A stretch of 64,000 bases of DNA from Macrocystis pyrifera (Eukaryota; Sar; Phaeophyceae; Laminariales; Laminariaceae): the NCBI GenBank assembly GCA_031763025.1, contig JASSKH010000031.1, forward strand, positions 1,302,001 through 1,366,000, read 5' to 3'. Made by a program: the position numbers and the translations under genes. Under the pieces are notes generated by a model. It did not search any database and had not been told where the DNA came from. It saw only the letters and a list, made by a program, of their open reading frames with translations. Below, one piece after another: positions 4,734 through 45,698 of this stretch; the stretch's first letter is position 1; every line of letters starts with the position of its first letter.

Positions 4734-5570
4734 CTGCGGCGTCTATGGTTATGGTTGGTGTTGCGCTTCTTGGAGAAGGATGGGGAGAGGGGTGGGGTTC
4801 GCGGCGAAGGAAGGGCGTGGCAGGGGGGAAGTCATCAGCAGAATAGTCAAGAGCACCACCACCACTACCATCACCAAGGCGGCGTTGCTGGTTGGGGCTA
4901 CCTCCTCCACCATCTAGCGGGCCGTCTCTCGGCGGTCTCCGTGCTCGTCCTGGCGCTGGCGGGGGTAGCCGCCGGATGCCTCTGGTGCGCGGTGCGCGTA
5001 GCGCGGTGGCGTGAGGAGATATTCGCGGGGAGCCCCTTGGCCTCCGAGGCGCTGTTCCGCGCAGCTGCTCTCGGCGGCGACAAGGACGACCACCCGCAGG
5101 ACGCGGCAGCTCTCGACAATGCTGAGGAGCATTACCCAGAAGTAAGCTCGTCGGCGTCGGGTGCGGCAATGGATGATGGGGCTGCGGTAGTGGTGGGGGG
5201 TGGAGCCGCGAAGATATGCACAAAAAAAACGGGAGCTCACCCTGGCGGGCTTAAGGACGGCGCGGTTTTCGACGACCCGGTCGGAAATATTTTCAGGCCT
5301 GGCACGCGGGCGTCGCGGGACTTTTGCGCTCCGCCCTCGATGGCGGGCGATGATGGAAATATTTTTTCGGGGGTAGGGGTGGGAGTCGGGGTCGGGGCGG
5401 GGGCCAGGACAGGGGCGGGGGTTGGAGCGGGGGCGGGGGTCGAGGGGGGGGGTGGCGGGGCCGTGGTGTTCTTGACGGGCGTGACAGGTCTTGTCGGGCA
5501 GATGGTCCTCTTCGACTTACTCCGTCAAGGAGAGAAGCCGTTTTTAGAGCATCCAGGGGCGAGTGTGAGG
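4734..5570 (+). CDS. FAR exon 1 (5' limit uncertain): membrane segment and Rossmann start
   Basis: The frame opens after a TAG at 4731. It encodes a His-rich stretch, a hydrophobic helix ([16 protein letters not shown], about 4936-4983) followed by basic residues, a low-complexity G/A/V region, and then the NAD(P)-binding start [16 protein letters not shown], a GxxGxxG Rossmann motif typical of fatty acyl-CoA reductases. No ATG precedes the helix in this frame; the first in-frame ATG is at 5169. Either an upstream exon supplies the start or translation begins at 5169 without the helix. The 3' limit is also uncertain: the frame must change by the next block, and the only nearby donor-like site is at 5571 (GTAGGT). 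A small intron or a sequence indel in the G-rich tract could both explain it. Confidence 0.7.

Positions 5571-45698: not shown

Follow-up and report, generated by a model that had tools for sequence, protein, structure and literature searches.

The order of exons at one locus of the brown alga Macrocystis pyrifera raises the question of whether the three enzymes that start ether-lipid synthesis can be built as one polypeptide. In this pathway, the reductase FAR converts acyl-CoA to a fatty alcohol, the acyltransferase DHAPAT makes acyl-DHAP and AGPS swaps the acyl chain for the alkyl chain; a fusion of FAR and DHAPAT, FARAT, is also found in Tetrahymena. We analysed a 64,000-nucleotide stretch of DNA (the window: C213:1302001-1366000 of genome record G000, which has 537 Mb in 223 contigs), and its sequence points to a locus that is very probably a single gene for a membrane-anchored multifunctional enzyme with the layout ACBP-TM-FAR-DHAPAT-linker-AGPS.

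The exons for FAR, the acyltransferase and AGPS all lie inside the window on the + strand and in pathway order, as the original prediction had it, and this is borne out by Pfam matches, by spliced alignment and by tblastn with the nearest full protein (P0001, brown-algal, 2906 aa), whose segments line up in order over 4056-45695. The predicted extent of 4734..45698 held at its right end, where the stop TGA occupies 45696-45698, but not at its left: when the 10 kb to the left of the window were aligned, two further ACBP segments were recovered at -1992..-1912 and -911..-795 (window coordinates), and the gene therefore starts about 2 kb left of the window. The stretch 1752-1835, tried as the first ACBP exon, recurs about 10.6 kb upstream and was thus rejected as a repeat; the aligner's 10-base exon at 22491-22500 was discarded as spurious. 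The exons below were obtained by spliced alignment of the window with P0002/P0001; lines from 24584 onward rest on that alignment, and for the earlier ones the evidence or particulars are given in brackets.

4056..4148, +, third ACBP segment, exon ends uncertain (tblastn with P0001/P0002)
4929..4994, +, hydrophobic, probable membrane segment before FAR (aligned to the P0001 hydrophobic segment; hydropathy of relatives)
5457..6264, +, FAR NAD-binding start TGVTGLVG and next part (donor 6265; frame break in low-complexity insert at ~5563-5716)
8830..9425, +, FAR exon with YTFTK and RPSIVGP (Pfam, tblastn, spliced alignment)
10629..12087, +, FAR C-terminal part (low-complexity inserts; breaks at 10875-11058 and 11607)
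14251..15318, +, DHAPAT exon, acyltransferase motif THRSYLDF with H at ~15162 (frame break near 14416)
15600..16126, +, DHAPAT exon with GAFFIQR and FLEGTRSR (Pfam, tblastn, spliced alignment)
16829..16980, +, DHAPAT exon with VPVSISYE (tblastn, spliced alignment)
19430..19541, +, DHAPAT exon (tblastn, spliced alignment)
21538..21690, +, DHAPAT C-terminal exon (tblastn, spliced alignment)
23505..25208, +, junction exon: DHAPAT tail, linker (conserved part ~24539-24684), AGPS start from ~25084 (tblastn, spliced alignment, linker profile)
24584..24592, +, GA run with two-base frame shift relative to relatives; raw-frame stop at 24617-24619
25591..25999, +, AGPS exon
26635..26763, +, AGPS exon, GC donor
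29204..29344, +, AGPS exon with PFGGGTSVT
30431..30618, +, AGPS exon
33653..33749, +, AGPS exon
34894..35052, +, AGPS exon
36010..36126, +, AGPS exon, Arg aligned to mammalian AGPS Arg419
37497..37658, +, AGPS exon
41691..41870, +, AGPS exon with IAYLRD
42994..43122, +, AGPS exon, Tyr aligned to mammalian AGPS Tyr578
43825..43939, +, AGPS exon with SHHHG
45577..45698, +, last AGPS exon, ending ...LLAAQTS, stop TGA 45696-45698, no PTS1

All three enzyme domains are present, in order and with intact motifs. The FAR model PF07993 scores 49.9 bits in 5354-6265 and 27.9 bits in 8792-9535 (cut-off 20.1; single open frames), and the window translations carry its NAD motif TGVTGLVG and the YxxxK motif as YTFTK. 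The acyltransferase model PF01553 is barely over its cut-off of 23 (23.7 bits in 15323-16255), and the DHAPAT/GPAT motifs HX4D, EGxRSR and VPxxxSYE all occur in the window translations. The window and the relatives show the FARAT order, with FAR and DHAPAT in one chain; for M. pyrifera, the single chain is conditional on the frame breaks discussed below. For the relative P0006, structure matches of the acyltransferase are to GPATs, and its matches to PlsB models fall below the curated cut-off; we infer that DHAP rather than glycerol-3-phosphate is the acceptor because the domain is fused to AGPS.

No single AGPS exon passes the Pfam cut-off (best 20.9 bits against 21.2), and spliced products were used on that account. 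The AGPS part comprises 13 exon pieces over 25114-45695 in one unbroken frame of 680 residues, with 74% identity to P0001, and the spliced product aligns with guinea-pig AGPS (4bby; E=1.7e-120, query residues 104-607) across the FAD and cap domains. It retains the SHHHG motif and the equivalents of Arg419 and Tyr578 (mammalian numbering), the residues named in the titles of structures 4bc7 (Arg419His) and 4bca (Tyr578Phe). In the relative P0015, the AGPS part shows the full fold, with a target-normalised TM-score of 0.92-0.94 to mammalian AGPS, and a fold search with its model returned AGPS only among the 50 matches listed. Six FAD_binding_4 places were reported in the genome (best candidates only), of which the one in the window matches as AGPS; the two on C137 resemble AGPS weakly, at 28% identity, and no match at an E of 1 was obtained for the three located on C194 and C197.

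A fusion search with the AGPS part, restricted to candidates of 0.55-1.75 x 2058 residues so that AGPS of ordinary length was left out, yielded 120 proteins. Domain profiles, scored at matches of at least 15 bits and ordered by midpoint, place FAR, AT and AGPS in the same order in 116 of these long relatives, although two to four of the very proteins then searched had gone into building the profiles, a choice that leans toward finding fusions. They replaced a strict regular-expression motif count, by which 28 of 97 proteins above 1700 aa came out ordered and which was dropped as too narrow. The architectures are ACBP-DegT-FAR-AT-AGPS (56 proteins), DegT-FAR-AT-AGPS (32), FAR-AT-AGPS (21) and ACBP-FAR-AT-AGPS (three: P0001, P0002 and P0111), with four more that have a weak ACBP match elsewhere; the exceptions are P0078 and P0086, which give no FAR match, and P0110 and P0114, which contain AGPS only. 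Where named, the organisms that have the fusion include Ectocarpus, Phaeothamnion, Triparma, many diatoms, Prorocentrum, Symbiodinium, Cladocopium, Durusdinium and the green alga Pycnococcus. They include transcript-derived frames labelled complete from other organisms, namely P0009 (2287 aa), P0077, P0082 and P0097, of which P0077 and P0082 group among dinoflagellates in the AGPS tree. The co-occurrence of the three domains in related proteins, which the original prediction proposed searching for, is thus amply found, and the window gene shares with the algal fusions the FAR-AT-AGPS order, the linker and an ACBP in front. The observation is genuine and goes beyond the first account, which overlooked the membrane segment, the ACBP domain, the broad distribution and the linker peculiar to the fusion. 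The gene very probably specifies a multifunctional enzyme for starting ether-lipid synthesis that is conserved among algae and represents a variant of the FARAT/AGPS system.

A DegT/DnrJ/EryC1 aminotransferase-like domain precedes the membrane segment in 89 of the 120 relatives, among them P0010, P0084 and P0009 (diatoms, dinoflagellates and others), and 82 of these 89 DegT-bearing fusions have a PLP-lysine-like motif. The brown algae are without this module.

The join between DHAPAT and AGPS lies in the junction exon, which carries the DHAPAT tail and the AGPS start as predicted and ends at 25208, but begins at ~23505 in the spliced alignment rather than at 23372. The exon phases do match apart from local slips, as was also claimed, but one of these slips falls exactly where the two parts meet. 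Within 24584-24592 (GAGAGAGAG), the DHAPAT-tail frame is two bases off the AGPS frame, and as a consequence of this slip in a GA run the raw frame stops at 24617-24619. Six more frame breaks lie upstream of the join, in low-complexity or poorly conserved stretches; four are shifts of frame in the spliced alignment, near 4344, 4775, 11607 and 14416, and two are intron-like jumps of 59 bases (5563-5621) and 184 bases (10875-11058), which may be short introns or slips. From 24613 to 45695, the aligner required no break. Since the conserved stretches on both flanks are intact, we read the breaks as repeat-length errors, alleles or short introns. M. pyrifera would then translate the gene as one chain.

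The linker, a region of ~110 residues between DHAPAT and AGPS, is specific to the fusion and, like the fusion, conserved across algae. A profile built from 22 of the fusion-search proteins finds it in 116 of the 120 (the 22 builders included), and gives no match in P0083, P0113 and the non-fusions P0110 and P0114. Among the + strand open frames of at least 40 residues in the window, the profile matches only 24529-25248, which runs into AGPS (E=2.9e-7). A second search, for proteins of AGPS length (best 120 of 4400 listed), turned up the linker in 80 of these 120; the remaining 40 are for the most part 500-700 aa in length, bacterial where named, and include the brown-algal P0121-P0123. Open frames of at least 100 residues in 80 bacterial AGPS loci (see below) gave no linker match. 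In the P0015 model (mean pLDDT 76.9, pTM 0.72), the linker region forms well-predicted helices followed by a disordered stretch at 534-554.

The raw-frame stop could be taken at face value, so that the locus would hold two neighbouring genes, a FARAT ending at 24617-24619 and a separate AGPS starting, for example, at the Met of frame 24529-25248. Such a split has parallels in Dictyostelium, which has FARAT with AGPS as a separate protein (PMC13256971), and in Phytophthora, which has both a FAR-acyltransferase protein (PMC2705460) and an AGPS record (P0114) with neither FAR nor DHAPAT. We nevertheless regard this as very unlikely. The brown-algal predicted proteins P0001, P0002 and P0003 read through the junction, the linker of the fusion-search proteins shares an open frame with the AGPS start in the window, its presence in two thirds of the listed AGPS-length proteins speaks the same way, and the window AGPS falls in the clade of algal fusions, apart from that of Phytophthora. 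The relatives showed no consistent stop ahead of AGPS, a result that had been named at the outset as one that would tell against the fusion. Five brown-algal and diatom records might have been cited for a separate AGPS, and we rejected all of them: of P0121-P0123, all annotated as stand-alone AGPS and devoid of the linker, P0121 carries a partial flag and begins within AGPS, P0122 opens with a Met three residues short of where the homologous junction exon ends, and P0123 begins further in, while the shorter diatom "AGPS" models P0127 and P0139 begin within DHAPAT.

The same break, together with the six before it and two degenerate duplicate exons, could alternatively mark a decayed or allelic broken copy in this individual, with the intact gene elsewhere or lost. 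This is likewise improbable, given that 13 AGPS exon pieces extend over 20 kb without a break, the motifs of all three enzymes are intact, the breaks fall where assembly errors occur, in repeats and inserts of poor conservation, and no second AGPS emerged among the six FAD_binding_4 places reported. A real fusion might still serve another end, for example by supplying fatty alcohols and acyl-DHAP for a different product, and the P0006 acyltransferase is indeed nearest to glycerol-3-phosphate acyltransferases, with NCBIfam scores far under the cut-offs. We consider this unlikely in view of the full AGPS fold in P0015 and the retention of the residues mutated in 4bc7 and 4bca, and since AGPS requires exactly the products of FAR and DHAPAT. 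We accordingly retain the reading of a single gene for an ether-lipid enzyme.

In that single polypeptide, the ACBP end would bring in acyl-CoA, FAR would reduce one acyl-CoA to the fatty alcohol, DHAPAT would put another acyl chain on DHAP and AGPS would exchange that chain for the alcohol and release alkyl-DHAP, to be reduced by a separate reductase. Each of these activities is predicted, and the intermediates may be channelled along the same chain. Mammalian GNPAT and AGPS are said to act as a complex for channelling (PMC9131029), and the algal fusion fits as a covalent version of it.

Animal AGPS has an N-terminal peroxisomal signal, PTS2. PTS2-like strings occur in the first 60 residues of only two of the 120 relatives, and the AGPS part of the window protein is internal. 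A PTS1 was found in one of 104 C-terminally complete proteins (those with HHHG within the last 160 residues), and this is the rotifer (animal) P0110, an AGPS that is not a fusion; the window protein ends in QTS and has no PTS1. Hydropathy indicates a hydrophobic segment before FAR in nine of nine relatives examined. With moderate confidence, we place the enzyme at a membrane outside the peroxisome lumen, other peroxisomal routes still being possible.

The literature puts FAR-acyltransferase fusions on record for Dictyostelium, an oomycete and bacteria (PMC7375469, PMC2705460, PMC9131029). FARAT of Dictyostelium (PMC7375469, PMC13256971) and its counterpart in Phytophthora (PMC2705460) likewise join FAR and the acyltransferase in one chain, but in Dictyostelium AGPS is a separate protein and FARAT is soluble and peroxisomal, with a C-terminal SKL (PMC7375469, PMC13256971). 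Relative to FARAT, the algal protein adds ACBP, the membrane segment, the linker and AGPS and has no PTS1. The animal enzymes FAR1, GNPAT and AGPS carry out the same three reactions, with GNPAT and AGPS in a complex (PMC9131029), but are three separate peroxisomal proteins. ElbD of Myxococcus xanthus likewise combines several domains for ether-lipid formation, a FAR-like one and an acyltransferase among them, but it has acyl-CoA synthase and ACP domains and its domain list as described there has no AGPS (PMC9131029). In Guillardia, FAR and AGPS are separate, PTS1-bearing proteins (PMC9244630), and a 2026 paper reports linkage in protists for FAR and DHAPAT only (PMC13256971). The open-licence literature on the fusion and on algal ether lipids, in its available portions, yielded no description of a three-part fusion, only of the two-part FARAT, which does not establish its absence from print.

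The nearest relatives of the algal AGPS are those of the myxobacterial operon MXAN_1676-1674 and like loci, where AGPS adjoins a FAR-GNPAT gene (PMC9131029); this operon differs from the fusion in that it specifies two polypeptides, with AGPS first as its own gene. A quick AGPS tree of 54 rows, with SH-aLRT support only, included 27 chosen from 240 proteins and 25 from 80 bacterial loci, L054 being left out because none of its open frames had both motifs. One side of a branch with SH-aLRT 100 consists of the 26 algal or unlabelled eukaryotic rows; 24 bacterial rows form another group (98) and animals with Phytophthora a third (70); algae and bacteria come together at 92, and the Dictyostelium row is very long. 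The window AGPS groups with brown algae and the AGPS part of P0001 with Ectocarpus.

The bacterial loci come from a scan with an alignment of eight AGPS proteins (two named Myxococcota), of which the best 80 of 98 were taken. Counting either strand, FAR could be detected in 56 of these 80 loci and the acyltransferase in 42; both lie on the AGPS strand in 39 loci, and in all 39 they share one open frame. AGPS shares an open frame with FAR or DHAPAT in none of the 80. The FAR frame starts -60 to +300 bases from the AGPS stop in 44 of the 80 loci, several of which are cut by contig ends; the same arrangement is described for M. xanthus MXAN_1676-1675 (PMC9131029). By record titles, AGPS adjoins a FAR-DHAPAT gene in Myxococcota, Gemmatimonadota, Nitrospira, Actinomycetota classes, Sericytochromatia, Tanganyikabacteria and Gammaproteobacteria, a range wider than the myxobacteria treated in the accessible text of PMC9131029. 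Acidobacteriota-titled loci have AGPS without an adjacent FAR-DHAPAT gene, and in two Gemmatimonadota loci (L021, L051) a DegT gene follows FAR-DHAPAT.

If the single-gene reading is correct, several major marine algal groups have a single chain for all three of the steps by which acyl-CoA and DHAP are committed to ether lipids, in contrast to the three peroxisomal proteins of animals and the FARAT plus AGPS of Dictyostelium. Such a fusion would offer a ready test of substrate channelling, call into question the need for ether-lipid synthesis to begin inside peroxisomes, serve in marine metagenomes as a single-gene marker of ether-lipid capacity and tie the algal pathway to the bacterial AGPS/FAR-DHAPAT gene pairs. 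As a speculative scenario, to which we give only a small chance, a bacterial-type ether-lipid set could have been fused once, early in algae, into a membrane-bound assembly line that spread across ochrophytes, dinoflagellates and Pycnococcus and moved the start of synthesis out of the peroxisome; DegT-bearing forms might then aminate the ketone of DHAP or alkyl-DHAP on the same chain, yielding amino ether lipids of a class not known so far.

Some minor features of the locus deserve mention. In the spliced alignment, the AGPS intron at 26763/26764 begins with GC, not GT. Two AGPS exons, 30431-30618 and 41691-41870, each have a degenerate partial duplicate close by, at 30230-30334 and 42183-42287, respectively. 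A dispersed repeat with a 33-base core (at most three mismatches) has seven copies, at 8705, 27259, 28394, 29001 and 45302 on the + strand and at 47983 and 48106 on the - strand; it did not occur in any of 100 shuffles, and five of the seven copies lie within introns of the fusion gene.
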